64,000 nucleotides of DNA from Gordonibacter sp. An230. Its GTDB lineage: Bacteria > Actinomycetota > Coriobacteriia > Coriobacteriales > Eggerthellaceae. The position numbers and the translations under genes were made by a program. The stretch is from contig NZ_NFJP01000010.1 of the NCBI RefSeq assembly GCF_002159915.1, positions 1 to 64,000 on the forward strand, written 5' to 3'. Below are positions 14,210 to 36,261 of the stretch, in pieces (position 1 is the first letter of the stretch; every line of letters begins with the position of its first letter). Under the pieces are notes generated by a model. The model saw only the letters and a list, made by a program, of their open reading frames with translations, did no database searches and had not been told where the DNA came from.

Positions 14210-14850
14210 AACCACCCTCAGACACTCGGACCATGCGCCAATTGTACCAAGGAGCGCAACCTCCTTCGGCAACAAAACCCTCGTATGGTGCCCGCCATGC
14301 CGAACTTCGCAAATTCGACACGGCGAGCGCACGGAGCGTGCGCATTTACCATCGAAGCGCGTCGGATCGCCGGAAAGCGTCACGCCGACAGCATCTTCTC
14401 CAAGGCTCCGAGATCCACATCAACCTCGCACTGCCCGATCTGCGATCTCCATGCATATATATCGAATCGTGACAAGGCTCGCCAAGCGTTCTGCAGCCCC
14501 TCCCTGCGTCACCGAAAGGACGGGGTTATTTGGGAACGAATCGGACAACCACCTTCGGAAAGCCCATACCCACGCACACCGCCCCTCCGCCAAGAATGAA
14601 AGGCGCTGGGACCCTGACGAAGTTTTCCGTCGCCGCGTCGCGCTCCCGAACGTCGAGCACGCACTCGGCGGACCCTCCTGCACGACCGCACCCCTTGGGC
14701 TTCGCGCGGCAGTGCCCACTGCGGAAATCTCCCGCACCATTAGCGCTCCATCTCCGCCGCACGCATCGTCGGCGCACAGCCCGCTCTGCCTCCTGCTGCG
14801 GCCGCTCTTCCCCGATTGCACGCCGTTTCCTGAATATGCCCTTTTCGGTA
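14210..14850. other. Intergenic between divergent LDT and surface-protein genes
   Basis: About 640 bp with no recognised gene. Must contain the minus-strand promoter for the L,D-transpeptidase. Overlapping frames on both strands show no protein features and cross the promoter region. Confidence 0.4.
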
Positions 14851-14878
14851 TTGATGAAGACTTGCGTTTTCGTATGAT
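14851..14878 (+). promoter_or_regulatory. Candidate sigma-70 promoter of surface protein
   Basis: TTGATG (14851-14856), a 16-nt spacer, then TATGAT (14873-14878). This predicts a transcription start near 14885 and a 5' UTR of about 70 nt before the ATG at 14953. Found by eye. Confidence 0.5.
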
Positions 14879-14952
14879 TGGAGTAACCTATTTTAAAGTG
14901 TGCGAACCCTCATGTTCCAATATGTCGCGTTTCGCGCTGGAAAGGAGTATAT

Positions 14953-17774
14953 ATGCAGAGAGAGAGAAAGAGAGAGAGAGAGCCGCGCTCTCCCGCGTCA
15001 TAGCGGGCGCCGCAGCGGTGCTTCTCGCGAGCTTTTTCGTGCTCTCGGTGCGCCCACCTGAGGCGTGGGCGTCAGAGTGGACGAAGCAAGGTTCGGGAGC
15101 CTCGGTCGACGATCCGTTCATCATCTCCGAGTCGCTGACACCCGATGCGTTCCACTTCTCAAACGATACCGAACTGGAATACATCGATAAGATATGGGGG
15201 GCGGCCAATCTTGACGACAAGCAATACGTCGCGATTGAGATCCCCGAGAAAACGACTGAAATCACGAGCAACACGCTTTTCGGAACCTCATATTACGGAG
15301 CCCAAATCGCCGACAAGGTGGTTGCCGTCGACTTTTCCAAGGCAACGAATCTCGAGGTCATCGAAGGTGGCTTGACAAAGGCGCCTCACCTTGGCGAAGG
15401 TTCGCTTCCGGATGGACGGAAGGGCATCATTGACCTGAGCGCCACGAAGGTTTGGAAGATACGAGGAAACACCTTCAAGGAAAATCCTGAGCTTGTCGGT
15501 GTCGTGCTTCCCGATACGCTGACCGAGATCGGCACGAATGGCATGAACATGCCAACATTCGGGGACTGTCCCAAGCTCGAATGGGTTCTCTCTGCGTCCG
15601 AGTACAACGCCCGCATGCAGAGCGGGGAAACGCTTTCGGGCATCGTGCTTCCAGAAGGCATAAAGAACGTGTACGAGGCGGCATTCGACCTCGATCCATG
15701 CCCCTTGCTCGACGATATCGCAAACGGATCGATCTTCGTCGTCGTCCCCGAGAGCGTCGAGATCATAGGGGAGCGTGGATTTCAGTTTCCCGGCAGTCAA
15801 GACGCTCCAACCAAGGCGACCATCGTGCTTAAGAGCGCCGAGCACCTCGAAGGGTTCGATAATAAGGCCTTCTCATCGAGCACCCACTCTTTTAACTTCC
15901 CAACGGTCATCCTCCCGGATTTCCAAGACTATGGGGACCATCAAGCGAAAGTCGAGGAGCTCGAGAGTTACGCACACTTGAGCTGGCCGGTCGATCTGCA
16001 GTTCATGAAAGCCGACGGGACGACGGTGATGACGACCGAAAGGAAGCTGCGCGGGTTTTCTTTGCAATACGAGCTCGTCGATGGCGAGTGGGTCTGGAAC
16101 GACGGGTATCGCCTCCCTTCCGCTCCCTCTGATGCGCCCGAACCGCAAGACGGCTTTGTCGGAGCCTGGACCATCACCGGCACGACGACCCTTGAGGACG
16201 GCGCTCTTCTCAACAGCGAAATCCTCGGCTCCGCTCCCCAGGGAACATATCAGGTCACATGGAGCGTCGATGACTTCATCGAGGAGCCGACGATATGGCT
16301 GTCCATCAACGGGAAGAAAATGCAAGACATCACCGCATCCACCGCGACGACGCCCACGCTTCAGGCGCGTCGCCTCGATACGGTCGGAGTGACGGTCGAC
16401 CATCCGCTCCTCAAGACGGAATCCACGGGAAGCGAGGATACTTACGTCGAGTTCAAGTATCTGTGGTACGACCGCATGAAAAGTGCCGACAGCATCGTTT
16501 CAGGCGCACGCACCCAAGCGTCCGACGGCGAACACGAGGACTTCTTCTATACTCCCGCCGAGTTCGATACGCCTATTACCGCCGATAGGCTGAGCGCGGT
16601 AAACGAGATTCCGCTGCGCACGCTCGAAGACGCGCGCAATGACGGCTCGATATTCCCCAACGATACCGGCGACGATCATTACTTCTGGGGTAATCCCGCC
16701 TACGGCGTCCAGATATTCGGCACAGTTTATAAAAACGGAGTGGCGCAGGACACGTTTTATTTCAAATCGGCGGTGCCGCTCATGCCCCTTGGAACCGGCA
16801 ATTATAGCTGCAACGACGACGTGACGACATGGAACAGCTACGATTTCGCCGTCAACGTCGAGCCGGCGCAATACACGATCACGTTCGATTCCGCAGGCGG
16901 CTCTGAGGTCGACCCCGTCATCGCAAACGAGGGCGAGACCATCACCGAGCCTGCGATCCCTGTGCGCGATGGCTACGAATTTGCAGGTTGGTACGACGAG
17001 GACGGCTCCCTTTACGACTTCTCCCAGCCGCTTCCGATGAGGCAGTCCGCCGACGACGGCGCAATGACGCTCACGGCGAGCTGGACACCTGTGGCCACGT
17101 CGTTCGAGGTGAGCTACTCGTTCCGGAGCGCCACGCCCGGCCTCGAGCTGCCCGCCGAGGTCCTGGCGCTGCTGCCCCCGGCGACCTCCGCCGCCGCCGG
17201 CAGCACGGTGACCCCCGAGCAGCCCGGCCAGACCTCGGTGAGGGTCGCGGGCGGAACCTGGACGTTCGCCGGGTGGGACCGCGACCAGGCCGTGGCCGAC
17301 GCCCCCGTCGAGTTCGTGGGCACCTGGCAGTTCGCGGCCGACGCGTCGTTCGAGGTGAGCTACTCGTTCCGGAGCGCCACGCCCGGCCTCGAGCTGCCCG
17401 CCGAGGTCCTGGCGCTGCTGCCCCCGGCGACCTCCGCCGCCGCCGGCAGCACGGTGACCCCCGAGCAGCCCGGCCAGACCTCGGTGAGGGTCGCGGGCGG
17501 AACCTGGACGTTCGCCGGGTGGGACCGCGACCAGGCCGTGGCCGACGCCCCCGTCGAGTTCGTGGGCACCTGGCAGTTCGCGGCCGACGCGTCGTCGTCC
17601 AGCCCAGACACGAATCCCAGCAACCCCAAGCCAGGTTCTGACGACGCCAATGCGGACCAAGGAGGCACGCTTGCCGCGACCGGCGATTCAACGGGAATCC
17701 CCGCAGCACTGCCCATAGCACTTTCCGCGCTCGCCACAATGACTGCGGCGAGCGCCCTCAAGCGGCGTATCTAG
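14953..17774 (+). CDS. LRR/SHIRT-like surface protein, start out of frame (candidate phase-variable)
   Basis: The best start is the ATG at 14953 with AAAGGAG 5 nt upstream. From there the frame hits TAG after 16 codons because of the AG tract (14957-14982). Removing one AG unit, or adding two, joins it to a frame open to 17774. The 939-residue product would start MQRERKRERAALSRV, a basic n-region, followed by a hydrophobic core and an AWAS cleavage site. The body has BspA-like leucine-rich segments (about residues 70-310), a Listeria-Bacteroides-type repeat (YTITFDSAGG...YEFAGWYDEDG), two identical 82-residue SHIRT-like domains, a Ser/Pro/Asp linker, then LAATGD, a hydrophobic helix and KRRI, a sortase-anchoring signal. 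The only in-frame upstream ATG (14922) lacks a ribosome binding site. Probable adhesin. Confidence 0.75.
14957..14982 (+). repeat. AG dinucleotide repeat tract in start region
   Basis: (AG)5-AA-(AG)7 begins one base after the ATG of the surface-protein gene. Such tracts change length by slipped-strand mispairing. The present length leaves the ATG frame one AG unit too long for the main frame. Confidence 0.9.
17100..17591 (+). repeat. Two identical 246-bp tandem repeats (SHIRT-like domains)
   Basis: 17100-17345 and 17346-17591 match base for base by eye. Each encodes 82 residues (FEVSYSFRSATPGLELP ... GGTWTFAGWDRD ... FVGTWQF). The pattern fits SHIRT domains of long streptococcal adhesins. 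GC content is higher than in the LRR part of the gene. Perfect identity implies recent duplication and easy copy-number change. Confidence 0.85.
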
Positions 17775-17850: not shown

Positions 17851-19100
17851 CCTGCATTTCCACCCACCTTTCGACGTGCCGCGCAATCGCTAAGCAGCCC
17901 ACTGCAGGAGCGGCACCACGTTCATGTTCCGCAATCCAATCCGCCGATGCCATTGCAAAGCTCTTGGCGCGCCCATCATGGAAACCTCGGCTTCATTGAC
18001 CCTCGCCCTGTGCAACGCACCGCTTCGAACATGTGAATTACTGAAATGCGCATCGGAAGTCCGAACGCCCGAGCGATTACGCGGCCGCGCCGACACGAGA
18101 GGCTTTCCCAACGCCTTTCCGCCCATGCGCCATAAACGCCTTTCGACTCTCTTATCGCACGCTCATCCGCTCTGACAGCGTTTCCGCGACAGCCCGCACG
18201 CCTCGCGACACCGCCGTAAGCGCCGTCATCCGAACAGGGTCATGCAAGAACGCCAGTCGCAGAATCATCCAAACGACGAATCGGGCCAAAGAGCGCAATG
18301 GGCCGGAAGCGAGGAGCTCCGCTACACGATGCCCGATGGCTACGCGAACTTTCTCGACACCGCCAACAAGAGCATGCGATTTCACTCGGAATGCTCCCGA
18401 CACCGAAGGCGCCGAGGATGATCGGAGCAGCGCATCCGTCGGCCAACGATGATCGCCGCAGGAACCGCATCCCGAAAACGATACGGCTCTTTTTCCGCAC
18501 GGTCAGCTGCTTCATCGCGAATACCCAACACCGCAGCGAATCACGCCGCAAGGCACGGGAACGCCAACAAGGCCCAAAAGGTGCCGCTTGCGAGCCGGGG
18601 AAAGAAAACTCGACATACGACGAGGGAGGAGAAGGAATGGGGGTTGCAGTCACTCGAGCACGCCCCACGTCCTTGCCCCACCAAAGCGAGAGGGCTTGAA
18701 CGATGCCGAAAGACGATGCGAAGATGCGCTGCCACAAGAAGCCGCATTGCACCCGACAAGGCAGAGGCTACCTGAAACGCCCTTCAAGCCTAAATCGACC
18801 GAATCCAAGATCAGAATTGGCACCGAACAGAAAAAAGGGGTGCGCCTGCACGGCGCCACCCCATCTATGAATCAGCGCGACACGTTCTCGCAAAACGAGT
18901 CGACGCTTCCTACTCTGGTGGAGCTTATGAGAAAAACGGCGAACTCCACAAGCACCGCCAACCGCGCAGCTATCCAGCTTGATACTTGCATAGTTAGAGT
19001 ATCGAAAAACTGGTTTGTTGTCGTTGGCACGTGCCAAAAATAGCAATTTCCGGTGTTTGCAAAACACCAGATGGGCGGCTTGCTGTAAGCCCGTCTAACG
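17851..19100. other. Gene-free 1.25 kb left of the prophage
   Basis: No intact gene. Minus-strand frames around 18240-18760 contain hydrophobic scraps (SGTFWALLAFPCLAA, IILGAFGVGSIPSEIA) broken by stops, which could be a decayed transporter gene. I cannot name it. TGGTGGAG at 18916-18923 also occurs at the 3' end of ssrA (51904-51911) and is a weak attL candidate. Short hairpins at 19051-19070 lie just before the first prophage terminator. Confidence 0.4.
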
Positions 19101-19105
19101 CCAGA

Positions 19106-19138
19106 AAGCGGGGCACCCCTTGTCAGGGTACCCCGCTT
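19106..19138 (-). terminator. Terminator after the lysin gene
   Basis: AAGCGGGGTACCC pairs with GGGTGCCCCGCTT (one wobble pair) just after the lysin stop on the minus strand, followed by TTCT. Ends the late operon. Confidence 0.75.
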
Positions 19139-19143
19139 GAACA

Positions 19144-20208
19144 CTAATAAGAAAGCTTCTGGCCGGGGTAGATCGTATAAGGTGCCCCAATGCCGTTCTT
19201 GCTTGCGATGGTGTGCCAGTCGATACCGAGCGAAGCGCCAATCTCGCTGAGCGTGTCTCCGCTCTTGACGGTGTAGACGCGCGCAGCGCCAACGCCCGCC
19301 CTCTGGTTGACGATTGCCTGAACCTCGCTGAAGCGGTCGCCCAGAACGTCGCTGCGCGTCGGCACAACGCCGAACATTCCGCGTTCCACATCATCTGCGA
19401 GCTGAGAAGCGGAAGCGCCGTCAATGTAGTTGATGAGGTCTTGCACCTCTTGGTAACGGTCGCCGAGCTTTTCGCGGCGCTCATCGTCAACGCCATACTC
19501 GCCGCGCATGACCGCTGCTGCAAGGTCAAGCGTCGTGCCCTCCGGCGAAGGCTCGGCGACCTCTGCGGGCGGAACGTCGGGCGCTGCCGCGCCGGACGGG
19601 TTGGCAAACTTGCCCCACGCTTCGCGCGTCATATAGGCGATATCGAGATCAAGCGGCGCGTTGAAGCCATTGAGACGGCCATTCGACGTGTACTGGTGGA
19701 TTGCGCAGCTACCCCAAGCGCCGAAGCCGCCATCGGGAAGCCACGGCGAAGACTGGTAGCCGGTGCGGTTGTTGTTAGCGTACTGCGCAACCCAGAGCGC
19801 GTGATTCGGCGCGATCTTCGACCAATCCTCTTCGGTGCAAACGCTACGGCTCATATAGACGATGCAGCGAACGCCGGTCTGATCGTAGACGTAATCGAGG
19901 AACTGCTTTGCCTTGTCGGTTCCGATGCGCCCATACATCTCATAATCGAGAACGGGAATGCCGTTGCCGAAGTAGTTACGGCAGCTTGCGACGAAGTGCT
20001 TAGCCTGAGCTATGGGGTCTTCTCCGTTCATGAAGTGATAGAAGCCCCAGAGCTTGCCGAGTTTGATAGCCTGCTGAATCCACGGGTCGCAGGTGTTGTG
20101 AACGATGGTGGTTCCCTCTGTCGCCTTGCAGATAACAAAATCGCAAGGCACCTGCGCGAGGTCAAGCCCGCGCTGGTAGTTAGAAATATCAATGCCGTTG
20201 AGTGCCAT
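19144..20208 (-). CDS. Endolysin: GH25 muramidase with Cpl-7 repeats and LysM
   Basis: 354 residues. Residues 1-200 are a glycoside hydrolase 25 domain (GIDISNYQRGLDL, VLDYEMYG with the catalytic acids, DLDIAYM). Two Cpl-7-type repeats follow (VMRGEYGVDDERREKLGDRYQEVQDLIN and VERGMFGV...LGDRFSEVQAIVN), then a C-terminal LysM (YTVKSGDTLSEIGASLGIDW). It degrades host peptidoglycan at lysis. Start ATG at 20208 follows GAGGGGG. It overlaps the upstream C39-like gene by 20 bp. Confidence 0.93.
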   Translation of the reverse strand: MALNGIDISNYQRGLDLAQVPCDFVICKATEGTTIVHNTCDPWIQQAIKLGKLWGFYHFMNGEDPIAQAKHFVASCRNYFGNGIPVLDYEMYGRIGTDKAKQFLDYVYDQTGVRCIVYMSRSVCTEEDWSKIAPNHALWVAQYANNNRTGYQSSPWLPDGGFGAWGSCAIHQYTSNGRLNGFNAPLDLDIAYMTREAWGKFANPSGAAAPDVPPAEVAEPSPEGTTLDLAAAVMRGEYGVDDERREKLGDRYQEVQDLINYIDGASASQLADDVERGMFGVVPTRSDVLGDRFSEVQAIVNQRAGVGAARVYTVKSGDTLSEIGASLGIDWHTIASKNGIGAPYTIYPGQKLSY

Positions 20209-20899
20209 AGAAGCCCCCTCTGATGCAGTAGAAGTAGTGAAAATCGACCTGCTCTAGCTCTTCGAGCGTGAAGGCGCGCGCTGAGTTCCCAGCGCTCGCC
20301 GGGTCGCGTATCCAGTAGCCGTCATCGTCGGCGCGCCAGATAAGCACGACGTGCCCGCCGTAGTCCCTATCGCCGAGCGTTCCGCTCATGCCAGCGAAGG
20401 CAAGCCACCCATCGGACACGTTTTGAAGGACGGGTGCGAGATCGTAAGAAATCGGCGTGCTCTCGATGCCGTATTCCGGGTAATGCTCGGCAATCCACGC
20501 GCAGAACTTGCCGGGGTCGTTAACGCCATCGGTAAGGCACGTGTCACCCACGAACGATGCGAGCGTGAGCGGCGTAATGTCCTGAAGCGTCATGTATTTG
20601 ACAGCCATAGCGGCGCATGTAAGGCCGCAGCCGTGGTCGCCGATGGTGCCGCCCGCATATGGTATGTAGTCCCATTGCGGGTCGGTCTGAAGCCATATCG
20701 GCATGCTGTTACCCTCGGCAATCGGCCTATCGGCAACGATTGCTAGGCGGTCTTCCTCAGCGGCAGCGTAGCCCTCTTCGTGCGCTTCAGCGAGCGCGCC
20801 CGCGTCGCTCTCGATATGGCCGACGATGAGCCAGCCGCAGAAGAGCATTGACGCGAGCGCGCCGGAAAGCACGAGGGCGACAGCCTTTAGCCTACTCAT
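20189..20899 (-). CDS. Membrane-anchored C39-like cysteine peptidase
   Basis: 236 residues from the ATG at 20899, which overlaps the holin stop (the longer frame starts at a TTG inside holin). An N-terminal membrane segment or signal anchor (about 5-27) precedes a papain-like domain with DHGCGLTCAAMAVKY (catalytic Cys), GGHVVLIWR (His) and IRDPA (Asp). It probably acts on cell-wall peptides, helping lysis. Confidence 0.8.
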   Translation of the reverse strand: MSRLKAVALVLSGALASMLFCGWLIVGHIESDAGALAEAHEEGYAAAEEDRLAIVADRPIAEGNSMPIWLQTDPQWDYIPYAGGTIGDHGCGLTCAAMAVKYMTLQDITPLTLASFVGDTCLTDGVNDPGKFCAWIAEHYPEYGIESTPISYDLAPVLQNVSDGWLAFAGMSGTLGDRDYGGHVVLIWRADDDGYWIRDPASAGNSARAFTLEELEQVDFHYFYCIRGGFYGTQRH

Positions 20900-21152
20900 C
20901 GCGCTTCGGCTCGGTGTAGGTGAGCGCTTGCGCGGAATCGCCAACGCCCGCCGTGGTCGGGTCGGTCACGATGCCAAGAATCGCGAGCACGGCGAAAAGC
21001 GCGTTGATGATCGCGGCCAACTGCTCGTTCAGAACTCCAAAGTCCCACTGGTAGCCGAACGGCGCGGCGACCACCTGCACGAGCAGCAGGACGGCGGGAA
21101 TGAGAGTAAGCCAGAACGTCTTGTTCTTGATTCGTGCAGTGAAGTTAATCAT
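20892..21152 (-). CDS. Phage holin, phi LC3 family
   Basis: 86 residues from the ATG at 21152, with AAGGAG 7 nt upstream. INFTARIKNKTFWLTLIPAVLLLVQ is characteristic of phi-LC3 holins. Two membrane segments (about 15-33 and 48-66) and a charged C-terminus. Forms the membrane lesion that releases the lysin. It sits directly upstream of the lysis enzymes. Confidence 0.88.
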   Translation of the reverse strand: MINFTARIKNKTFWLTLIPAVLLLVQVVAAPFGYQWDFGVLNEQLAAIINALFAVLAILGIVTDPTTAGVGDSAQALTYTEPKRDE

Positions 21153-21153
21153 T

Positions 21154-21600
21154 TCAGTTCTCCTTTTCATAGATGAGGTCTACGCGGTCGTAGATGTGAT
21201 CGACCTTGTTTGCCATGTCGTGCGAGTGCTCGCGCGATTCCCTGATTTCGTCGTGCAGCGCCGCCGTGGAAGCCCTGAGAGATTCCATAGCTGCTTGCAG
21301 CCCTTCCGAAATGTTGTTGCTACGCTCCATCTGCGCAGCGATGCGGCCTTCCATTTCCGAGCGCTCGCGGTCGCGCTGCGCGCGCTCGTTGAGTTCGTCG
21401 CGCTTGCGCTCTTCGCGCTTCAGCTCTAGTTCTGCCTGCCGCGCCGCGTTTCGCTCTTCAAGCTCTGCCTTGCGCTCGTTGTTGCGCTGGTACTCGTTAA
21501 GCAACTGCTTTGCGAGTATTCCGAAACCGATAGCAACGAGGAACGCGAAGAACCATTCGGCACCGAAGGCCGCTGCATGGTCTAAAACGCTCTCCGCCAC
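21154..21600 (-). CDS. Membrane protein with long coiled coil, lysis module
   Basis: 148 residues, GTG start at 21600 after GGAGGG. One N-terminal membrane segment (about 12-33), then a highly charged coiled coil (about 35-140). Similar layouts occur in XhlA-like or tail-anchored phage proteins. Its stop abuts the holin start. Function inferred only from position. Confidence 0.6.
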   Translation of the reverse strand: MAESVLDHAAAFGAEWFFAFLVAIGFGILAKQLLNEYQRNNERKAELEERNAARQAELELKREERKRDELNERAQRDRERSEMEGRIAAQMERSNNISEGLQAAMESLRASTAALHDEIRESREHSHDMANKVDHIYDRVDLIYEKEN

Positions 21601-21601
21601 G

Positions 21602-22048
21602 TCAGCCCTCCGTCACCTCTCGCCAGACGGTTTCTGTGCCGACAGCCCCCGGCTCCCAGACGTTGTTTGCAACGAGGGATTCCCAGACCTTGCCGTTGTG
21701 CTTGACGCGGGCACCGAGCGGGTAGGGATTCGTAGAATCGGGCTGCACCCATTCGGGCACTTCCTCTGTCGGCGTGTCGGGCGTGCCAGCTTCAAGCACC
21801 TGCGCCCAAAGGCTCGGCGCTGCCGTGGGTGCCCAATCGGTCTGCGACGTGTGCGCCTGAAGGCACGTGTAAAGCTCGCCCTCATAGCTCACGCGCTCGC
21901 CCTCGGCGTAGGCGCGGCCGTTGCTGTCCCACGCGGCGAAGAGCGCGGCGGCTCGGCTCGCCACGTCGGTTGAGAGAGACGGCGCTTGTGTCTTGTAAAT
22001 CGCGATGATCGCGCGCACCATGCTCTCTTCGTCTTCGGTGAGTGCCAT
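21602..22048 (-). CDS. Tail protein with two chitin-binding-like modules
   Basis: 148 residues. Two CBM5/12-like segments are visible: YAEGERVSYEGELYTCLQAH and YPLGARVKHNGKVWESLVAN, each followed by W and a WxP-type end. Phage tail appendages and depolymerases often carry such modules for glycan binding. First gene after the DGR terminator. Confidence 0.65.
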   Translation of the reverse strand: MALTEDEESMVRAIIAIYKTQAPSLSTDVASRAAALFAAWDSNGRAYAEGERVSYEGELYTCLQAHTSQTDWAPTAAPSLWAQVLEAGTPDTPTEEVPEWVQPDSTNPYPLGARVKHNGKVWESLVANNVWEPGAVGTETVWREVTEG

Positions 22049-22075
22049 TTGTTGCCCCTTTCTCTCGGTAACGAA

Positions 22076-22101
22076 AAAGCCCCCGCGTCTGCGAGGGCTT
22101 T
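22076..22101 (-). terminator. Terminator downstream of DGR reverse transcriptase
   Basis: On the minus strand AAAGCCCTCG pairs with CGGGGGCTTT around a short loop, followed by a T-run. It lies about 25 bp after the reverse-transcriptase stop. Confidence 0.8.
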
Positions 22102-22126
22102 GGTACCTGATAGTGTGTGTTCGCTC

Positions 22127-23236
22127 TTAGCTGAAGAGCTGCTTATAGAGCGCGTCCATGCGCCTTACCGTCTCGTGAGCGTCAAGCCGCTTCATGCCTC
22201 CGCGCCACGATTGGTAAGACTGGTTGACTTGCTCGACGGTCATAACGCCGCGAGCGACCAGCGCCGCTTGCTTCTTCAGCTTGCGCCGCTGCCGCGTCAC
22301 GGAAGAGCGGCAAGGGCGAACAACCACCTTTTCACCCTCGCCATATGAAAACCTCTTCTTCAGGAAAACGAAGCCGCGCGACAGCTTCACTACGCGCGTC
22401 TTCTTGCGGTTGATGATGATTCCCAGATCGTCGCAGAGCGCTTCGATGCGCGAAAGCGCGTCCCAAAGCGTCTGCTTGTCAAGCGCGATGCAATAGCTAT
22501 CGTCCATGTAGCGACCGCTCGCGAGGATGCCCGGAAGCGAAAGCATCAGATGGTCTATCGGCGACGGCAAGGCCACCGCTAGAATCTGGTTCGGCTCGCT
22601 GCCAAGACCAAGCCCGCGCGCACCGTGAGCGTCTATCTGGTCGCCCATGACGCGCTTAACGCGCTCATCGTCAATGGCTCTGTCAATGATGCGCTTGCAA
22701 GCGTCGTGGTCGATGTTCGCGAAATAGTCCGAGAAATCGACCTGCAAGATGTAGCCTTCCGCCCCGTGCTTTCGCCGGTGGGCTACAAGCTGACGCTTCA
22801 TGCGCTTGATTGCGTACTCGGTGCCGCGCCCCTTCACGTTTGCGGCGCATCCCTCTGTCAGGGTAGGCCAGATCGCGGGTGCGAGCGCGTGACGGCTTAA
22901 AGACTTCTGTATGACACGCTCCGAGAAGTGGACAGAGCAGATATGACGAAGCTTTCCGCGCTCGAAAAGGTCAAACTCGATGAAGCCGCGCCGGAAGTCA
23001 GCGCCCGTGAGCAGGTCGCGGCGCGCCCGCATGATGTTTGGCATGACACGCCCCATGTAGCGCTGGACGCTTGCCTTCCAGCGAACGCCCGCAGCAGCGC
23101 CGTTCGCCGCGCTGTATAGGTTATCGAGGTCTGCGACGGCTTCTAGCGTGCATCCTTCGATGCGCCTAGCCCTATTCTCCGCGCGCTTGGCATCTCGCCT
23201 TGCGCGGCGTGCTACGCGTCGCTCTTCAGAGTTCAT
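22127..23236 (-). CDS. DGR reverse transcriptase
   Basis: 369 residues from the ATG at 23236 (GGGGTG upstream); the frame extends 57 codons further up into the spacer after the template repeat. The catalytic YMDD is at 243-246, the other catalytic aspartate is in VDFSDYF (D167), and motif 4 reads GLGLGSEPNQ (208-217), with NQ where most bacterial RTs have SQ. A very basic N-terminus (RRVARRARRDAKRAENRARR) may bind the template RNA. There is no maturase or endonuclease domain, so it is not a group II intron RT. It copies the template RNA with adenine errors and directs the product to the variable repeat. Confidence 0.93.
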   Translation of the reverse strand: MNSEERRVARRARRDAKRAENRARRIEGCTLEAVADLDNLYSAANGAAAGVRWKASVQRYMGRVMPNIMRARRDLLTGADFRRGFIEFDLFERGKLRHICSVHFSERVIQKSLSRHALAPAIWPTLTEGCAANVKGRGTEYAIKRMKRQLVAHRRKHGAEGYILQVDFSDYFANIDHDACKRIIDRAIDDERVKRVMGDQIDAHGARGLGLGSEPNQILAVALPSPIDHLMLSLPGILASGRYMDDSYCIALDKQTLWDALSRIEALCDDLGIIINRKKTRVVKLSRGFVFLKKRFSYGEGEKVVVRPCRSSVTRQRRKLKKQAALVARGVMTVEQVNQSYQSWRGGMKRLDAHETVRRMDALYKQLFS

Positions 23237-23452
23237 GAGGGCACCCCGCGCGGCTTGCAGTCGGCATCCAGCAGCCGCTTGACGGTTGACCATGAAACGC
23301 GGTCGGAAGCCGAGAACCGCGCCATGCAAGCAGCGAACGGCAACCGTCGCGGGGTGCATATTTACGGGCGCATGCCCGGTGGTCGCCCCTTCCTTCCTCA
23401 AATGCACGGCGCGCGGCGCTTACGGCCGCGTGGTCTGGCAAAGCTTGGGAAT

Positions 23453-23576
23453 CACGGCAGCGGGCGTATCCAGTCGTTCGTCGGCGCGTTGTTGTTGGCA
23501 TTGCCGTTGTTGTTGACATTGCACGCGTTGGACGAAGAACCACCCATGACAGACCGCAGCCACCAATTGACGCGAC
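23453..23576 (-). ncRNA. DGR template repeat (TR)
   Basis: A 124-bp non-coding copy of the 3' end of the target gene (24107-24230), between avd and the RT. It matches the variable repeat except at 17 positions; 16 of these are adenines in the TR coding-sense strand and one is a thymine. The TR would encode asparagine-rich residues (NVNNNGNANNN), the AAC/AAT-codon pattern typical of DGR templates. It should be transcribed as part of the avd-TR-RT RNA. Confidence 0.95.
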
Positions 23577-23604
23577 GATTTCCAAGGGACAACTCGCGAA
23601 CATT

Positions 23605-24015
23605 TTACCCCTTTCCTATGAGTTTCACGCCAGCGCGAGCGCCCTTTATCAGCTTAATGTCGCTGTCGATTCGGTCTAGGATTCCTTCGAGCCGCGCGGC
23701 CTTGATGGGAAGCCCCATAGTCAGAAGGCTTTGCATGTCTTGGTAGAGCTGGTTTAGATCTGCCAGCGCAAGCGTCATGTAGCGCTTCCGCTCATCGACG
23801 TTGCGCGCCGTGTTCGGATAGAATGCGTCGGCCTTAACCAGATTGAAGACAACGCTTCGCGCCGTCTCTGCCATAGGCACCGCGAAGATGAAGCGGTAGG
23901 ATTTCGGAACGTCGCGCGACGTTACAAGGCGCGTCACGTCGTTTCTGATCGCAACCGCCGTGTTGAAATACTCGAAAGAGCTTAGGTTGCGGTTGCGCAT
24001 GTATACGCCGCTCAC
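23605..24015 (-). CDS. avd: DGR accessory variability determinant (Avd-like)
   Basis: 136 residues from the GTG at 24015, chosen because AGGAGGTG lies 7 nt upstream; an ATG five codons later lacks a site. The protein is all-helical (FEYFNTAVAIRNDVTRLVTSRDVPKSYRFIFAVPMAETARSVV...RYMTLALADLNQLYQDMQSLLTMGLPIKAARLEGILDRID), as expected for the four-helix-bundle Avd family. Avd forms a pentamer that binds RT and template RNA. Position between target gene and TR is the classical order. Confidence 0.85.
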   Translation of the reverse strand: MSGVYMRNRNLSSFEYFNTAVAIRNDVTRLVTSRDVPKSYRFIFAVPMAETARSVVFNLVKADAFYPNTARNVDERKRYMTLALADLNQLYQDMQSLLTMGLPIKAARLEGILDRIDSDIKLIKGARAGVKLIGKG

Positions 24016-24043
24016 TTCGCGGCACCTCCTAATCTGCGACGGT

Positions 24044-24068
24044 TGGCGCATGCGCAAGGCATGCGCCA
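24044..24068. repeat. Hairpin just downstream of the DGR variable repeat
   Basis: Perfect 9-bp arms TGGCGCATG and CATGCGCCA around a 7-nt loop, 38 bp beyond the end of the variable repeat on its 3' side. In the Bordetella phage DGR a hairpin or cruciform at this side of VR helps target recognition. No T-run, so a terminator is less likely. Confidence 0.6.
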
Positions 24069-24090
24069 GCGCGGTACTGTGTACGGCTTA

Positions 24091-24993
24091 TCAGCCTATG
24101 AGGAAGCACGGCAGCGGGCGTATCCAGTCGTACGCCGGCGCGGCGTAGTAGGCAGAGCCGCCGCCGTCGCCAGAGCACGCGTTGGACGAAGAACCACCCA
24201 TGACAGACCGCAGCCACCAAATGACGCGACCGCCCGCGATGCGGCTTGCCGTATCGCTGAAGATGGGGAACTGGCTATCGAAGCCGACAGAGTAGCCCTT
24301 GGTGCCCCATACCGGACAGCCGTAAACCTCCATCTCTGAGGGCGACCAGACCTTGCCCAAATCCGCCCAGCTCCAACCGCTCGATTCGGTGAGCTTTTCG
24401 CTCGAAGAATAGCGCTCTTCGAGAAGCACGCGCTGCGCCATGATCGCGTTCTGAAGCGCGGTCGGCAGCGCTGGCAGGAAGTCGTTGATTTCCCAGTCGT
24501 GCAGCTTCGAAACCAAGTAAGGGTGCTTTTCCTCGGCGGTACCGTTGTTGTCGTTCGTATCTCGCCACTGAAGGTAGCTGGTGTTTGATGCCTTGTCTCC
24601 GGTGACGCTCACGGGCGCGAGCGGCACCATGACGATATGGTGCCCCTTCGCTGTGTCGCCGCACTGGTAATAGTGGTCGATAGCGCCGATGCGGTAGCGC
24701 ACCGTCTGCGACGGCACGTTAGCGCCCGCCGTGATGGGAACGTCGATGTAATCGCCGATACGAAGACCGGCGAAGTTGGCGCTTCGAGCGCGGTTCCGAA
24801 GCCATGTGTAAACGTCGGTGCTCCCGATCTCGCTTGCGAAGACCGAAGCGAGCGAGCGACCGCCGTATGCGTTGATGATGTGCTGCCGGTCGTATTCCTC
24901 GGCAGTCGTTACGGCGTTCGCCGTGTTGCGCGCAGAAGAATCCTTCAGATTGTAGGCGGTTCCGCCGATAGAGAACTTCGACAAGTCGGCCAT
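24091..24993 (-). CDS. DGR target: variable tail/receptor-binding protein
   Basis: 300 residues. The N-terminus (FSIGGTAYNLKDSSARN) looks like a phage tail-fibre attachment motif. The C-terminal half (GDYIDVPITAG ... YRIGAIDHYYQCGD ... WWLRSVMGGSSSNAC) fits the C-type-lectin-like DUF6273 fold seen in DGR targets. The variable repeat (24107-24230) encodes residues about 255-296. Compared with the template-encoded sequence, 12 residues differ, nearly all former asparagines (now Ser, Asp, Gly, Tyr, Ala, Ile). Good AGGAG precedes the ATG. Likely the adhesin that meets the host receptor. Confidence 0.9.
   Translation of the reverse strand: MADLSKFSIGGTAYNLKDSSARNTANAVTTAEEYDRQHIINAYGGRSLASVFASEIGSTDVYTWLRNRARSANFAGLRIGDYIDVPITAGANVPSQTVRYRIGAIDHYYQCGDTAKGHHIVMVPLAPVSVTGDKASNTSYLQWRDTNDNNGTAEEKHPYLVSKLHDWEINDFLPALPTALQNAIMAQRVLLEERYSSSEKLTESSGWSWADLGKVWSPSEMEVYGCPVWGTKGYSVGFDSQFPIFSDTASRIAGGRVIWWLRSVMGGSSSNACSGDGGGSAYYAAPAYDWIRPLPCFLIG
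24107..24230 (-). repeat. DGR variable repeat (VR)
   Basis: Aligned without gaps to the template repeat at 23453-23576. The last 27 bp at the 3' side (24107-24131 and 2 more) have no substitutions, as expected for the initiation-of-mutagenic-homology end. Substitutions cluster at 24132-24174, with one more at 24221. Confidence 0.95.
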
Positions 24994-25008
24994 TGCTTTT
25001 CTCCTTCC

Positions 25009-26010
25009 TTAGTTGAGCGTCGCCGTCTCGCCGCTCACGTTCGCCTGAGCGACGGTTACGGTCTCGCTAGAAAGTGCAGTGCGTCTGTTGGTGGGCATGT
25101 ACGCAGTTTCGCCAAGAACTATGTAGCCGTCCTGTAGCTCCACAAGCGCCGTCGCAAGCGTCGCGTTCTCTTCGCGCAGCTCTTGCACCTCGTCATCTGA
25201 GGGCGGCTCGATAGAAGCGATAGAGTTTGCGATGTTAAGCGCGTTCTGCGCAGCGGCGGTGGCATCCTCCGCCGCGCCGTTTGCCGCAGCAGCGGCGGCG
25301 TTGGCACTTGAAGCGGCAGTGTTCGCCGCGCTCGCGGCGGCGTTGGCGTTGGATGTTGCCGCGTCGGCGTTCTGCTTGGCGGTGTTGGCGGCTGATGCCG
25401 CGTTGTTCGCAGCCGTGGTTGCAGCGTCGGCGTTCTGCTTGGCGGTGTTCGCCTCCGAAGCTGCGCTTGTCGCCGACGCTGCGGCATCGTTTGCAGCCTT
25501 CGCGGCGTTGGTCGCGCTCGTAGAAGCCGAGTTCGCCTTGCTCGCGGCGCTGTTCGCCGCGCTGGCCGCGCTGTTGGCTGAGCTTACGGCCTGATTGCCA
25601 CGGTCGATGAGGTCTTGAACGGCATCGTCCCAGTTCTGCGCGGGCTGCTGCCCGTCAAGAGCGCTGCGCAGGATTTCGATAGCGAACCGCTCCGTTGAGT
25701 AGGTGTTTCCGCCCTTCGTTATCGTGAAGTAGGCTTCGTCGGTGTAGCCGGGGACGCTGCAAAGCTTGGATTCGTCAACCGTGATCGTGGCGGCGTTGCC
25801 GCTGACTGAGCATTGCCCGCGATAGTAGTTGCGCTTGTTCGGCAGAAGCGCCACGAGCCACACCGTAGCGCCCGAAAGCGAGAACTCGGCTCCGTTGTCG
25901 TAGATAAGCGCGTTGATGGTCGTTCCGCCATCGTCGCCCTGACCCACCTTAATACAAGTTCCCGCTCCCTCCTTCGAGATATCGAGTTCAAGCGTCCGCG
26001 TGTTGCTCAT
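25009..26010 (-). CDS. BppU-like baseplate/tail protein with Ala-rich stalk
   Basis: 333 residues. Residues about 1-120 resemble the BppU N-terminal domain (LELDISKEG...AEFSLSGATVWLVALLPN). A long Ala/Ser/Asn repeat region (about 140-265, units such as AAxAANxA and AKQNADAAT) predicts a trimeric coiled-coil shaft; the DNA there is itself repetitive. The C-terminus is short. It overlaps the upstream gene by ATGA and precedes the DGR target, so both probably build the host-binding tip. Confidence 0.8.
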   Translation of the reverse strand: MSNTRTLELDISKEGAGTCIKVGQGDDGGTTINALIYDNGAEFSLSGATVWLVALLPNKRNYYRGQCSVSGNAATITVDESKLCSVPGYTDEAYFTITKGGNTYSTERFAIEILRSALDGQQPAQNWDDAVQDLIDRGNQAVSSANSAASAANSAASKANSASTSATNAAKAANDAAASATSAASEANTAKQNADAATTAANNAASAANTAKQNADAATSNANAAASAANTAASSANAAAAAANGAAEDATAAAQNALNIANSIASIEPPSDDEVQELREENATLATALVELQDGYIVLGETAYMPTNRRTALSSETVTVAQANVSGETATLN

Positions 26011-26408
26011 TGCGCGCCGCCTTCCTCGCCGGTTCCGTAGGCGAGTGCGCGGAGGGCTTCGAGCGCTTCGGCGAAGCTCATAGCAGACCGCGCCTTGCTA
26101 GACACGGGCTGCACGTCCGCACTCGCGGCGACGGCTGGCACGCTCGCGGCCAGAGCATCGAATACGTCAACGACAGCTCTAACCCTGTCATCGACGTATA
26201 TGGGCTGAACGATGGTGAACGAGCCTTCGCGGTTCTCAGGCTCCTTTACGTCGTCAACGGGAACGATGGAACGGCTTCCATCATCGTCAACGGCGATGAA
26301 TACAATTCCGCCCTCAGCGGCTTTCTTAAGAAGCTCGCTGTCGTACTCAGTAATGACTGCTTCCGAGTTGCTTAGCGGGTCGTGAGCAACGTAATAAATA
26401 GTCGCCAT
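26007..26408 (-). CDS. Phage tail-region protein, unknown
   Basis: 133 residues from the ATG at 26408 after GGAGGTATTTC. No family recognised with certainty; begins MATIYYVAHDPLSNSEAV and ends in an acidic/alanine-rich helix. Lies between the tail lysin-like protein and the BppU-like protein, overlapping the latter by 4 bp. Confidence 0.6.
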   Translation of the reverse strand: MATIYYVAHDPLSNSEAVITEYDSELLKKAAEGGIVFIAVDDDGSRSIVPVDDVKEPENREGSFTIVQPIYVDDRVRAVVDVFDALAASVPAVAASADVQPVSSKARSAMSFAEALEALRALAYGTGEEGGAQ

Positions 26409-26419
26409 GAAATACCTCC

Positions 26420-28981
26420 CTAGTCCAGTCCGCAGTATGTGCATAACCCGTTCTTGAAGTTGATGGATCGCGTTTTCCAAGACCAAGAAATTGTTCCGTC
26501 TCCGTCATCTCTAATCTCGCTAATGTACGTGACACTCGAATCTTTCGTTGTGCAGATGGTCGCTGTCGTACTCTGATTGCTTGATACGGCAGTCGAAATC
26601 TGCGGCGAACTGATGCGCACCGTTCCTTCTGCCGTAATCTGAATGCCGCGATACTTGATTGACGGATCGTCAATGTTGTACGAGTGGGCGGAGAAGTCAA
26701 TCTTTCCTATCTGCGTGCTGTTCTCATACCCGTAGATAGCACCGCTGACAATGCGAAGAAGGTTCGACACCGTACCGCATTCGAACGTTCCGCTTGCGTT
26801 TATGTTGTTCGCGGTCATGTAGTTAGTCGTGAGCTTTCCCGTGCTCAGGTTCCACGTGTTACGCCCCAGACGGTCGCTGATCGTGCCGGTCTCGATGTAG
26901 GTAGCGTTGATATAGAGCAGACCGCCGCTTAGGTAGATTCCCTGCGTAGCGCCGTTGTTCGTCAGCCGGTTGAAAACCTCACGTTGCGTGAGGGAATCGT
27001 CCAGCTCGTCCACCTTGTCTTGCGCTTGCGCCTGCTCAATAATGCTCTTCGCCTGACGGGCTGCTGAGTTGTACGTCTTGATGGTATCTGAATAGTCGCT
27101 GTATGCGATTTCGTAGAGCTGCATAGCGTCCGACAGCTCTTCAGCCGTCGTTGTCCCAAGCACGTTTTGGATGCGCAGTTCTAGCTTCGCATGCGTGCCG
27201 TTGACACTAAACACCGCTTCGTACTGAGTTCTGAGAACTTGCTTGAATTGGTAGTTGAGGTATTCGCTGTTGTATAGGCTTTCGTACTCGTTTTCGAGGT
27301 CTACGCGCTCCTTCTCGACGGTCTGCATGATCTTAGACACCGCCGCGTGCTCGGCTTCCGTTATGATGCCGTCTTCGGCTATGCCGTCCATCGTCTTATC
27401 GAGTTCGTCAAGCCCGGTGAAAAGGTCTTCAACGCTCGTGTCGCCCAGTTTCGCGCCAGCGGAAAGCGAGAACTCGCCGCTGGTCAAGTCCCAGAAGTTG
27501 TTTCCCTTCTCGTCGGTCAGCAGACCGGCGCGCACGCGGTCGGCCTTCATGGTTCCAGCGTTGATAACGTCGGCAGTAACCATGCCACCCGTGAAGAACG
27601 TTCGCCAATCCCATTGACCGTCTGACGTAAGGCCAGCAGCCAACCGCTGACCGCGACCGTTGACGTTGATAGCCCACATGTCGGCGGTTGACTTGACCGG
27701 CAAACCCGTTTCGGGGTTCAGCGGTACGTTGCTCCAAATCTCGCCCAGCTCGAACGTCTCGACATGGTAGGTGCCAACCGCGTTGAACTGAGCGTTGAGC
27801 GCCTGCTGAAGCTGAATTAGCCACGATACCGACGTGCCAGCCGCAGCGTCGTAGAGCGCGTTTTGCTGGCTGTTGCTCTTCAGGGCGCTGCTAACGCTCT
27901 GCCACATGTCGGCCATCGTGTCCGTAAGCGTGCCGAACGTCACGGTCGCGTCGCCGGTGAGCAAGTCGCGCTCAATCTGAGACACGCGGCCATGAAGGCG
28001 CACGCCTTCGGCAGAAAAGCCCTTGTCGATGATCGCAACGTCATCGCCCACGCCCACGCCCTCCCACGAGCGCCCGAACGCGTATAGGTCGATAACCGAA
28101 GCGGTGTAGGTTACTTTCGGCTCCTTCACTTGCTCTAGGTAGTCTTTCGTTTCCTGCAAGAGCTGCGCCGCGTCCTCGCACTGCTCGTTGACGTATGACG
28201 CGACAGCGGGAAGAATGCCGCCCTCTCCGTCGGGGTGCCCCCAAACGGCGGTAGCTTCGGCATCCTCCACGTAGTCTTTGCCGCCGTTGATATCGCCGAA
28301 AGTGAGACGGCGACCGTAGCCGCCGCCTTCCGTCTCAACGCCCTTGCCGTAGCCGTATACGCGCGTTTTCGGGTTGTCGCTCGCTATTGAGCGCTTGACC
28401 GAAACGAGGTCTTTAGTCCACGTGAAGCGCTTTGCGCTGCTCTGGTTCCCGCGAAGGGCGCGAATGTTCACGCGCCGCGCGACGATGCCAGCGCCGTTGT
28501 GAACGATGGTCGTTTCAAGCTCGCCGCCCCACGTTTCCAGCAGCTCGGCTATGCCCTCGCGCACGCTGATGTGGTAGAAGGTGTGCGAAGCTCTGCCGCC
28601 CTGATCGCAGGTGCCAACCTCCCAGCGCGTGTCAGCGAGAATGGATGAGAGGGCTACCGACACGCTGCCAGAAGGCCGCTTATCGTCCAACCAGTCATCC
28701 CACGTCTCGTTAACCGAGTTGATGCAGACCGCTTGCGTCTCTGGCGCGCCGTCATCGTCGTGTACGCGGTCTACGGTGTCAACGATGTGTTCGTGGCAAA
28801 CTCCCTGAAGGTCAATCCAAACTACGCGGTCGCCCTTCACGAGGTCTTCGGCGCACGTGATTTTCAGCTCGTCGGTGCCGTCCAGCGCGTCGGCGTGCGT
28901 CGCGGCGCTCACCGTGAGCCGCCCCAGATTGTCGCCCCAGCGGTTGAAGCGGGTGAAGCTGATACGTCTAACTAAAGCCAT
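26420..28981 (-). CDS. Tail spike / prophage endopeptidase tail protein
   Basis: 853 residues from the ATG at 28981 (a GTG four codons earlier is also possible). The N-terminal part resembles the prophage tail (Tal-like) proteins that follow Dit in siphoviruses (RISFTRFNRWGDNLGRLTVSAATH...). A long helical middle (about 520-690) and a C-terminal beta-rich part (NNGATQGIYLSGGLLYINATYIETGTI ... TIS) suggest a trimeric tip. Overlaps the Dit gene by 10 bp. Confidence 0.78.
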   Translation of the reverse strand: MALVRRISFTRFNRWGDNLGRLTVSAATHADALDGTDELKITCAEDLVKGDRVVWIDLQGVCHEHIVDTVDRVHDDDGAPETQAVCINSVNETWDDWLDDKRPSGSVSVALSSILADTRWEVGTCDQGGRASHTFYHISVREGIAELLETWGGELETTIVHNGAGIVARRVNIRALRGNQSSAKRFTWTKDLVSVKRSIASDNPKTRVYGYGKGVETEGGGYGRRLTFGDINGGKDYVEDAEATAVWGHPDGEGGILPAVASYVNEQCEDAAQLLQETKDYLEQVKEPKVTYTASVIDLYAFGRSWEGVGVGDDVAIIDKGFSAEGVRLHGRVSQIERDLLTGDATVTFGTLTDTMADMWQSVSSALKSNSQQNALYDAAAGTSVSWLIQLQQALNAQFNAVGTYHVETFELGEIWSNVPLNPETGLPVKSTADMWAINVNGRGQRLAAGLTSDGQWDWRTFFTGGMVTADVINAGTMKADRVRAGLLTDEKGNNFWDLTSGEFSLSAGAKLGDTSVEDLFTGLDELDKTMDGIAEDGIITEAEHAAVSKIMQTVEKERVDLENEYESLYNSEYLNYQFKQVLRTQYEAVFSVNGTHAKLELRIQNVLGTTTAEELSDAMQLYEIAYSDYSDTIKTYNSAARQAKSIIEQAQAQDKVDELDDSLTQREVFNRLTNNGATQGIYLSGGLLYINATYIETGTISDRLGRNTWNLSTGKLTTNYMTANNINASGTFECGTVSNLLRIVSGAIYGYENSTQIGKIDFSAHSYNIDDPSIKYRGIQITAEGTVRISSPQISTAVSSNQSTTATICTTKDSSVTYISEIRDDGDGTISWSWKTRSINFKNGLCTYCGLD

Positions 28982-29709
28982 CGTTCCACCCACTCAAGAA
29001 TCGCGGTGCCGTTGGTGATGTTCAGGTGGCATCGTCCGTTGATTTCGAAGTAATCCGAATCAATCGTTACCGGCGCGGTCTGGTTGTTAACCGTCGCGTG
29101 CTCGGTCTCCATGTCAAGCCTGATGGTGCTTGAAGACGTGAGCGCGGTGTTGATAGCCACGAACTCGCCGGTATCGACGTTCGTAATCCGCCACGCGCTG
29201 CCAGCGGAGGGCTTCGCCGTGACCTTCAGGTAAGCGGGGCGGTTGCCGCCAGCGTTTACGTAGACGTTGCCCGCCGAAACCTCCATGCGGCGCTTCTGCC
29301 CGTAATAGTCGGGGTCGCCGACATGGAAAGTCACGGTGGTTGTCGGGCAATCGTCCGTGATCTCGTCTAGGTCGGTGCTGCCGCTCACGATTGCGAGCAG
29401 GTAGCGCGTCGGGTCATCGGGAAGGTAGAGCGGCGCGGGTTCTTCAGTCCAGAGAGCCGCCGCGAGCTTGTGCCGCATCTCCGCGACCTCGCGGCGGTCT
29501 TCAGTCCTAAGCCAAATCTCAACGGGGAGGTCGTAGCCGCCACGGTAGGCGCTCTTGAAAACCTCGCCGTGCCGCCCCGGCACGCTCTCGAACGTCGCGT
29601 TGACGGTCGCCATGATGGGGCGGCGCACCTTGCAGTAAACCAGCTTCGATAGGTCGGTGCCGTTGAAGATGATTCGGTCGTGCTGGTTCCTAGTCCGTCT
29701 AAGTTGCAA
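28972..29709 (-). CDS. Distal tail protein (Dit)
   Basis: 245 residues, TTG start with GGGGGTG upstream. IIFNGTDLSKLVYCKVRRP, then GRHGEVFKSAYRGGYDLPVEIWLRTEDRREVAEMRHKLAAAL..PLYLPDDPTRYLLAIVSGSTDLDE is the classical siphovirus Dit pattern. Forms the hub linking tail tube and tip. Overlaps the tape measure gene by 11 bp. Confidence 0.85.
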   Translation of the reverse strand: MQLRRTRNQHDRIIFNGTDLSKLVYCKVRRPIMATVNATFESVPGRHGEVFKSAYRGGYDLPVEIWLRTEDRREVAEMRHKLAAALWTEEPAPLYLPDDPTRYLLAIVSGSTDLDEITDDCPTTTVTFHVGDPDYYGQKRRMEVSAGNVYVNAGGNRPAYLKVTAKPSAGSAWRITNVDTGEFVAINTALTSSSTIRLDMETEHATVNNQTAPVTIDSDYFEINGRCHLNITNGTAILEWVERWL

Positions 29710-32353: not shown

Positions 32354-32443
32354 GTAATCACCCCTCTTCGGTTGTCAAAGTCCCATGAGTGCTTGAAGCA
32401 ACGCGCCCTCGCGGGTGCGCTGCCGTCAAGAACTCACTTCACG

Positions 32444-32713
32444 TCATGACCAGAACGCGGCTTCTGCCTTGCGCGCCTTCTCGTCCTCGTCGTAGTGCGC
32501 CGCAGCGTCGGCGTAGAACGCGTTAATCTCCAGAAGGTCTTTAACCTGCCGGTAGCTCATCATCTGAAGGTCTGAGAGCGTCAGTCCGCATTGCTGGCAG
32601 TTGTAGATGTATCGCGCGTCGCACGCGTCTTGCAGGTTACTTGGAAGCGGCGGGGCTGGCCTTTTCGGCTCCCTCGGCTTCCACTGCATCTTTCGCGGCG
32701 CTTGGAAAAAAGT
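32444..32713 (-). CDS. Tail assembly chaperone, downstream frame (gpT-like)
   Basis: Open frame whose only possible independent start is a weak TTG at 32725. It overlaps the end of the upstream chaperone frame and is probably reached by +1 frameshifting at the run TTTTTTC (32711-32705): Phe-tRNA would slip from UUU to UUC. It encodes a Cys-containing region (YIYNCQQCGLTLSDLQMMSYRQVKDLLEI) typical of the gpT part of chaperones in actinophages. The tape measure gene follows. Confidence 0.65.
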   Translation of the reverse strand, partial: TFFQAPRKMQWKPREPKRPAPPLPSNLQDACDARYIYNCQQCGLTLSDLQMMSYRQVKDLLEINAFYADAAAHYDEDEKARKAEAAFWS

Positions 32714-33047: not shown

Positions 33048-33057
33048 TCGCAACCTC

Positions 33058-33651: not shown

Positions 33652-33661
33652 TTGGTCTCTC

Positions 33662-34962: not shown

Positions 34963-34976
34963 CTGTCACCACCTCG

Positions 34977-36257: not shown

Positions 36258-36261
36258 CGTT

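Follow-up and report, generated by a model that had tools for sequence, protein, structure and literature searches.

Evidence for a complete, probably functional diversity-generating retroelement with RT-2 RNA and a non-GRNA target hairpin in a prophage of Gordonibacter sp. An230

Among the closest described systems is the diversity-generating retroelement (DGR) of Bordetella phage BPP-1, which comprises the reverse transcriptase (RT) bRT or Brt, the accessory protein bAvd and the target Mtd, and which mutagenizes at the adenines of a template repeat (TR), as described in PMC3240598 and PMC12875486. According to these reports, an element that follows the variable repeat (VR) is required for efficient homing in BPP-1 (PMC3240598), and the spacer RNA recruits RT-Avd and primes the complementary DNA (cDNA); a stem-loop placed after the initiation of mutagenic homing (IMH) sequence was suggested to keep the target strand open (PMC12875486). 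According to the survey in PMC8144416, 75% or more of the mismatches are at A in nearly every DGR, and the RTs of DGRs make up a single clade. Closer to the host considered here, DGRs made of ert, avd and mtd are reported for Eggerthella lenta prophages of clades 2, 3, 4, 7 and 10, with TR inside the RT gene in clade 2, and a change in VR of the clade 4 prophage DSM2243phi4 during a chemostat run was reported as active diversification (PMC8778435). The locus analysed here spans positions 22127-24993 of a 64,000-nt stretch of Gordonibacter sp. An230 (the window; NZ_NFJP01000010.1 of assembly GCF_002159915.1, forward strand), and can almost certainly be read as a DGR that is complete and probably functional, carried by a siphovirus-like prophage of an Eggerthellaceae bacterium. 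This reading had been proposed in a first-pass annotation made from the letters of the DNA, and it is upheld by the TR/VR bias, the RT tree, the Avd-like fold, the IMH/IMH* ends and the hairpin after VR, which, like the probable fold of the target, are as expected of a complete DGR directed at a tail-tip gene. The parts of the cassette are the following.

22127-23236, minus strand: DGR reverse transcriptase (369 amino acids; LGSEPNQ and YMDD motifs), from RVT_1 at 8.3e-9, a profile match to BPP-1 Brt and the tree
23221-23443, minus strand: structured RNA RT-2 (RF03077; Infernal 101.4 bits, E 2.4e-22), occupying the position that the spacer RNA has in BPP-1
23453-23576, minus strand: TR, matching VR without gaps
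23605-24015, minus strand: avd-like gene (136 amino acids, four-helix bundle), from predicted fold and place, with a GTG start behind AGGAGG
24044-24068, no strand assigned: inverted repeat after VR, likely a target-recognition hairpin or cruciform (10-bp stem, 5-nt loop CTTGC on the sense strand)
24091-24993, minus strand: DGR target gene (300 amino acids, DUF6273, probably C-type-lectin-like), with VR at its C-terminal end
24107-24230, minus strand: VR at the 3' end of the target gene, aligned with TR over 124 bp without gaps, 16 of the 17 differences being at template A
24107-24129, minus strand: IMH-like 3' end of VR, 23 bp identical to TR 23453-23475, followed by a fixed C/A marker at 24106/23452

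The coordinates given in the first-pass annotation and the order on the minus strand (target with 3' VR, avd, TR, RT) proved exact, and the ungapped 124-bp alignment with 17 mismatches was identical when recomputed. Indeed, 16 of these mismatches fall on the 27 template adenines, as had been claimed, and the hypergeometric probability of such a distribution by chance is 3.7e-12; the only other difference, also correctly called, is a T to G that turns GTC into GGC and Val into Gly. The template holds eleven AAY codons, which from the sequence allow up to 15 amino acids per site and no stop codons, and the frames of RT, avd and target are all open. From the position of VR, the variable residues of the target are computed to be 258 and 274-288. 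The distance from the end of VR to the last base of the target stop codon is 16 bp. The similarity of the two repeats can be extended by 5 bp, to 23448/24102 (129 bp), if one A/C difference is permitted; at this position just past the repeat TR reads GTGATTCC and VR reads GTGCTTCC. Since the A/C difference is fixed in all 8 of 8 close loci, 124 bp was preferred over 129 bp as the repeat boundary, and the marker is read as the IMH*/IMH boundary, which would remain untransferred, rather than being attributed to mutagenesis. The possibility of another VR in the genome was also considered, and rejected because a search of the host assembly (3.88 Mb in 73 contigs, estimated 96.7% complete) yielded no second VR and no additional copy of the repeat.

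The comparison of VR with TR that had been proposed as a check was made on related phages, where the VRs do differ, and mostly at template adenines; the refuting pattern named in the first-pass annotation, identical VRs with differences away from template adenines, was thus not seen among these phages. The region upstream of RT was scanned for repeat pairs in 120 loci (80 from IMG/VR, 39 from GTDB genomes, and the window) with an equal penalty for every mismatch; a TR/VR pair was obtained in 112 of them, window included, and the remaining 8 gave none. With identical pairs counted once, 100 distinct pairs remained, in which 1460 of 1529 mismatches are at TR A, a count that includes the fixed boundary A/C wherever a pair extends beyond the marker, and 69 are at other bases (C 26, G 18, T 25); A makes up 3017 of the 12432 bases of these templates. 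Upon exclusion of the last 9 columns, in which the boundary marker lies, 1378 of 1415 mismatches are at template A and 37 elsewhere. In 102 of the 112 pairs an open reading frame of at least 70 amino acids lies between VR and TR, as avd does in the window. A metagenomic virus contig (L003) and a Collinsella aerofaciens locus (L083) are particularly informative, as their 128-bp TRs are identical and their VRs show 11 differences, every one of them at a template A; the target gene before VR has 31 differences over 764 bases. In parallel, non-A differences among the TRs of eight close loci are mirrored in the respective VRs in 530 of 530 cases, a figure that partly follows from the selection of pairs, and give indirect support for TR-to-VR copying. 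Overwriting of VR from TR in this lineage is thus supported, indirectly, by the sequence comparisons.

The product of 22127-23236 was compared with RTs of known kind. A profile of its family matches BPP-1 Brt best among PDB chains (8ub7, 8.1e-35, its identity as Brt checked using the BPP-1 gene), followed by a group II RT at 1.1e-17 and, lower still, by retron and defence RTs. In a maximum-likelihood tree of 48 rows the window RT groups with DGR RTs, in agreement with the expectation of the first-pass annotation, and the two group II RTs are split from the other 46 rows at 100/99; the DGR side consists of a BPP-1 side of 13 rows (98/80) and a window side of 33 rows (99/96). Among the labels of this tree, L136, L133, L128, L130 and some others are marked rt2 without an RNA scan, and L079 was scanned and gave no match; L135 and L139 (no usable frame) and L123, L125, L126, L127 and L131 (not read in the right frame) are omitted. 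Within the host family, 14 of 138 genomes match the window RT at E 0.001 or better, a count that takes in the host and some distant RTs. One of the distant RTs of the host family (L141) has an asparagine-rich stretch in its open frame that resembles a translated TR.

The product of 23605-24015 can be regarded as Avd-like by its predicted fold and its place, not by sequence. Its AlphaFold2 model is a four-helix bundle with a mean predicted local distance difference test (pLDDT) score of 89.7, which VIA-align superposes on chain 8ub7_C of the BPP-1 DGR complex at Z 14.8 with a root-mean-square deviation of 1.9 over 108 residues.

As for the target, DUF6273, named in the first-pass annotation as a profile to search, was recovered by Pfam at 3.6e-7 (30.6 bits, cut-off 23.5), and is present in 30 of 36 scanned members of the target family. 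Searched by sequence against PDB chains, this family gave no match. The AlphaFold2 model (mean pLDDT 88.9) has 9qa6 as its sole Foldseek match at E 0.001 or better; in VIA-align it reaches Z 14.6 with 9qa6, 8.0 with the Treponema variable protein TvpA (2y3c), and 5.7 to 6.9 with C-type lectin domains (6.9 with the carbohydrate-recognition domain of the mannose receptor, 6.1 with CD23). The target is probably C-type-lectin-like, a likeness of a predicted model that is suggestive and no proof of fold. Similar targets are described elsewhere: in gut phages nd4 and nd12 the DUF6273 domain carries the VR and is reported to resemble a C-type lectin domain (PMC10743442), and in Faecalibacterium phages VR is reported to map to the DUF6273 C-terminus (PMC11792537). 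These targets have VR in DUF6273 as in the window; nd4 and nd12, however, have two targets each and the window one, no second VR having been found in the host assembly.

The element that follows VR and the RNA that follows TR distinguish this DGR from that of BPP-1. The hairpin at 24044-24068 lies between the target stop and the avd start, and ends 28 bp ahead of the avd start codon. A stem of at least 7 bp with a loop of 3-8 nt was found in 84 of 90 distinct post-VR regions (window included, after dropping duplicates and regions of less than 100 nt), as compared with 3.4 expected from shuffles and with 9 after TR. Loops were surveyed separately, with stems of at least 6 bp and loops of 3-8 nt; seven loci had no hairpin, and counting identical hairpins once left 69. 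The two counts rank hairpins differently, and the hairpin chosen differs in some loci (e.g., L008). Of these 69 hairpins of the window type, 48 have a 5-nt loop, 32 have YTYRY on the sense strand and none has GRNA. The base that flanks the loop on the 5' side is C in 45 of the 48 hairpins with a 5-nt loop, and the other six stem positions examined vary. These hairpins are not independent, as the 48 correspond to 19 stem clusters, 16 of which have YTYRY in at least one member. As a contrast set, 67 BPP-1-type loci were analysed with the same finder, which recovers the known BPP-1 hairpin: 58 have a TR/VR pair, 9 have none, and 7 have no hairpin. Of the 23 distinct hairpins, BPP-1 itself (L156) among them, 18 have GRNA and none YTYRY; four of the 23 lie at distances above 60 nt and might be something other than the genuine element. 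These figures can be set beside published ones, as phage DGRs are described with stems of 7-10 bp and 4-nt GRNA loops, whose size and sequence matter in BPP-1 (PMC3240598), and archaeal DGRs are reported with GRA triloops (PMC4372165).

A parallel division is found in the RNA. RT-2 lies in the gap between TR and RT and reaches into the RT start. Rfam scans covered 44 of about 120 window-type loci and 20 of the 67 BPP-1-type loci, chosen for diversity. RT-2 lies between TR and RT, or where expected, in 41 of the 44 window-type loci (16 of 16, 11 of 14 and 14 of 14), the misses being L061, L062 and L079, and L151 is the same place as L010; Phage_DGR (RF03022) is present in BPP-1 and in 18 of the 20 BPP-1-type loci, with L218 and L220 as misses. 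The two families never occur together among the scanned loci. Across the two clades compared, the class of the hairpin loop, the RNA family and the RT clade coincide, an association that represents two clades related by descent and not many independent events. A narrow BPP-1-type definition leaves the window DGR outside, as it has RT-2 for Phage_DGR and a CTTGC loop for GRNA.

It is conceivable, at slightly less than an even chance, that these are matched sets, in which each clade has its own initiator RNA and target hairpin (RT-2 and a 5-nt loop that starts with a pyrimidine in the window clade, Phage_DGR and a GRNA tetraloop in the BPP-1 clade), with the loop read by the clade's own retrohoming complex, and in which the sets are not interchangeable. 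A clade-specific loop would point to recognition rather than merely holding the DNA open. A literature search of limited extent, made largely in openly accessible journals and without the paper that first described RT-2, returned no paper that states the link between RNA family, loop and RT clade, and none that uses the name RT-2 for this RNA; the main texts of PMC8144416 and PMC8867640 contain no occurrence of hairpin or Rfam. RT-2 as the spacer RNA of this clade, together with a non-GRNA target hairpin, is thus apparently unreported. The Rfam name of RT-2 makes no reference to DGRs, and the family gains a clear context in this way; the association of loop, RNA and RT makes the way in which a DGR complex finds its target directly testable.

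By analogy with BPP-1, the avd-TR-RT transcript would fold through the RT-2 RNA and bind RT and Avd. TR would then be reverse transcribed with random bases opposite the template adenines, as BPP-1 and the adenine bias suggest, and the cDNA would take the place of the 3' VR of the tail-tip gene that encodes the DUF6273 protein. The 23-bp IMH/IMH* identity and the hairpin after VR, both seen in the DNA, would mark the site of replacement. The expected outcome would be a phage population with many receptor-binding variants, and in this sense the switching of receptor specificity anticipated by the first-pass annotation is an inference from analogy.

As a DGR the element is ordinary. The first-pass annotation had placed the interest of the cassette in its host group, a point that does not stand since DGRs of E. 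lenta prophages were already published (PMC8778435); what is added is a member in another Eggerthellaceae genus. The prophage DSM2243phi4 has the same parts in the same order (mtd with VR, avd, TR, RT) according to PMC8778435. In a genome of the host family (G055) the DGR RT at 3,064,520-3,065,626 falls within the limits published for DSM2243phi4, and this genome was therefore taken to be that E. lenta strain. The RT is 65% identical to the window RT over 342 residues and shares its LGSEPNQ and YMDD motifs, and its DGR also has the RT-2 RNA. The host genus differs, both being Eggerthellaceae, and within the 8.6 kb compared DNA similarity is confined to the DGR stretch. BPP-1 likewise shares with the window the parts and their order, a 3' VR, a hairpin after VR, and the folds of RT and Avd; its mutagenesis at template A has as its counterpart the adenine bias of the window. 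In contrast, the BPP-1 RT is only 25% identical to that of the window, its spacer RNA is Phage_DGR and not RT-2, its hairpin loop is GAAA (4 nt) and not CTTGC (5 nt), and its target is Mtd and not a DUF6273 protein.

Some observations weigh against the reading of the locus as a complete, probably functional DGR. DGR RTs have by consensus an S before Q. The LGSEPNQ motif of the window RT has N in this place, as does the RT of the active E. lenta DGR. The outgroup of the tree is thin, consisting of two group II rows, one of them a fragment, with no retron or defence RT. Two other bundles outscore 8ub7_C in the comparison of the Avd-like model (2gsc at Z 17.9 and the S23-family 2rld at Z 16.5); the Avd-like family has no significant sequence match to bAvd, the Pfam model being matched by 1 of 36 members at 0.0093, and no Avd is found among its PDB sequence matches. 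The likeness of the target model to C-type lectins is at middling Z. One VR difference is not at A, yet 47 of the 112 pairs, window included, have at least one such difference. Finally, the data for this strain are one assembly of one isolate. An alternative is a decayed DGR, that is, an element that was recently active and of which this copy no longer works, the T to G being the first drift of VR; the change is indeed derived in the window VR, as TR and VR of L003, L004 and L083 all have GTC there, and activity is invisible from one genome. Such decay appears very improbable, however, given that the RT, avd and target frames are open and YMDD is kept, that non-A differences are common in the clade, and that all the non-A TR differences from seven close loci are mirrored in the window VR, so that the last overwriting postdates those changes. 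Another mode of mutagenesis as the source of the T to G was rejected, because the change is derived in the window VR and such differences are frequent among the pairs.

Even less probable, to the point of being negligible, is a defence, retron or group II RT that happens to lie beside a chance or decayed duplication of the end of a tail gene. What speaks for it are matches to RT models of other kinds: PADLOC RT models, which have no cut-off, match the window RT weakly (best 7e-17), and the group II model TIGR04416 does so at E 9.6e-15 with 54.5 bits against a cut-off of 300, with Drt2 at 22 against 390 and retron St85 at 20.6 against 235. These alternatives for the RT were rejected since the scores are below the curated cut-offs, the family profile matches BPP-1 Brt in the PDB with an E-value 17 orders of magnitude below that of the best group II RT, and the tree places the window RT with DGR RTs; moreover, differences so concentrated at A would not arise from simple duplication, and the adenine bias is clade-wide. 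An explanation of the hairpin alone, namely that it is a terminator or attenuator of the messenger RNA between target and avd and not a DGR target element, has the position between two same-strand genes, 28 bp ahead of the avd start codon, in its favour. It is nonetheless unlikely, as TTTT follows within 12 nt in only 6 of the 69 distinct window-type hairpins, the stems vary while loop and closing base are constrained, and the position matches that of the BPP-1 element needed for efficient homing described in PMC3240598.

Within the siphovirus-like prophage the DGR is located at the tail-tip end, where tape measure, Dit, Tal, BppU_N and target follow one another; terminase, portal, protease, capsid and endolysin genes are found around it. 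The neighbours that the first-pass annotation had called BppU-like and Tal-like are confirmed by Pfam. The features of this region are given below.

25009-26010, minus strand: BppU_N baseplate or tail protein adjoining the target (Pfam 7.3e-7)
26420-28993, minus strand: Tal or prophage endopeptidase tail protein (Pfam Prophage_tail 5.1e-30)
28972-29709, minus strand: distal tail protein Dit (profile matches)
29699-32353, minus strand: tape measure protein (PHROG 58, 2.6e-61)
18916-51903, no strand assigned: prophage, approximate limits, set on the left by the end of similarity to a Collinsella prophage and on the right by the 3' end of the transfer-messenger RNA (tmRNA) gene

No att repeats bracketing the prophage were found in repeat searches of the window or in the congener comparison, and the phage collection contained no near DNA match of 18800-40500. 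A contig of Collinsella aerofaciens carries nearly the same prophage, with 94.7% identity over 29367-40796 and 96.0% over 44077-46481. The part that holds the tail tip, the DGR and the lysis genes (18916-29366) is 87-89% identical, and several stretches between or beside these are at 82-90% or less, with only 75% over 40890-41449. The serine integrase stretch and the tmRNA, identified by ARAGORN, follow in the Collinsella contig too (75% over 50362-52272). In two congeners of the host similarity to the window starts at the tmRNA 3' end, besides a 41-bp second copy of that end in one of them (G002). Since the NCBI taxonomy assigns Collinsella and Eggerthella to separate orders, this relative suggests, from the sequence of one assembly, that the phage lineage changed host across orders. 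Its divergence is higher at the tail tip, the DGR and the lysis genes than across the main structural genes, and it may represent a natural host change in a DGR phage.

Some minor features of the prophage and its relatives can be added. The gene of a large serine integrase (50463-51953) ends inside the 3' part of the tmRNA gene (51904-52272), and a tyrosine integrase is encoded at 44062-45246, which makes two integrases in or beside one prophage. A tRNA-Ser (GCT) lies at 40804-40891, upstream of the terminase gene; the Collinsella counterpart is without this stretch, as similarity ends at 40796 and restarts at 40890, and no tRNA was found there. A 118-bp tandem duplication with copies 97% identical occupies 46458-46693. 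On the Collinsella contig (L150, G138:C6:36001-55900) a second, inverted DGR-like stretch at about 41028-44237 lies about 8 kb from the first and has RT-2-like DNA at 42147-42307 (83%) and an RT region 67.5% identical to the window, so that two pieces of DGR prophages are neighbours there. A viral contig (L065) has two type II hammerhead ribozymes (10210-10275 and 10552-10615) a few kb downstream of its DGR RT. Finally, between the host DNA shared with a congener (up to 14357) and the prophage lies a gene at 14451-17774 for a surface-like protein of 1107 amino acids, with two nearly identical repeat copies near its C-terminus.

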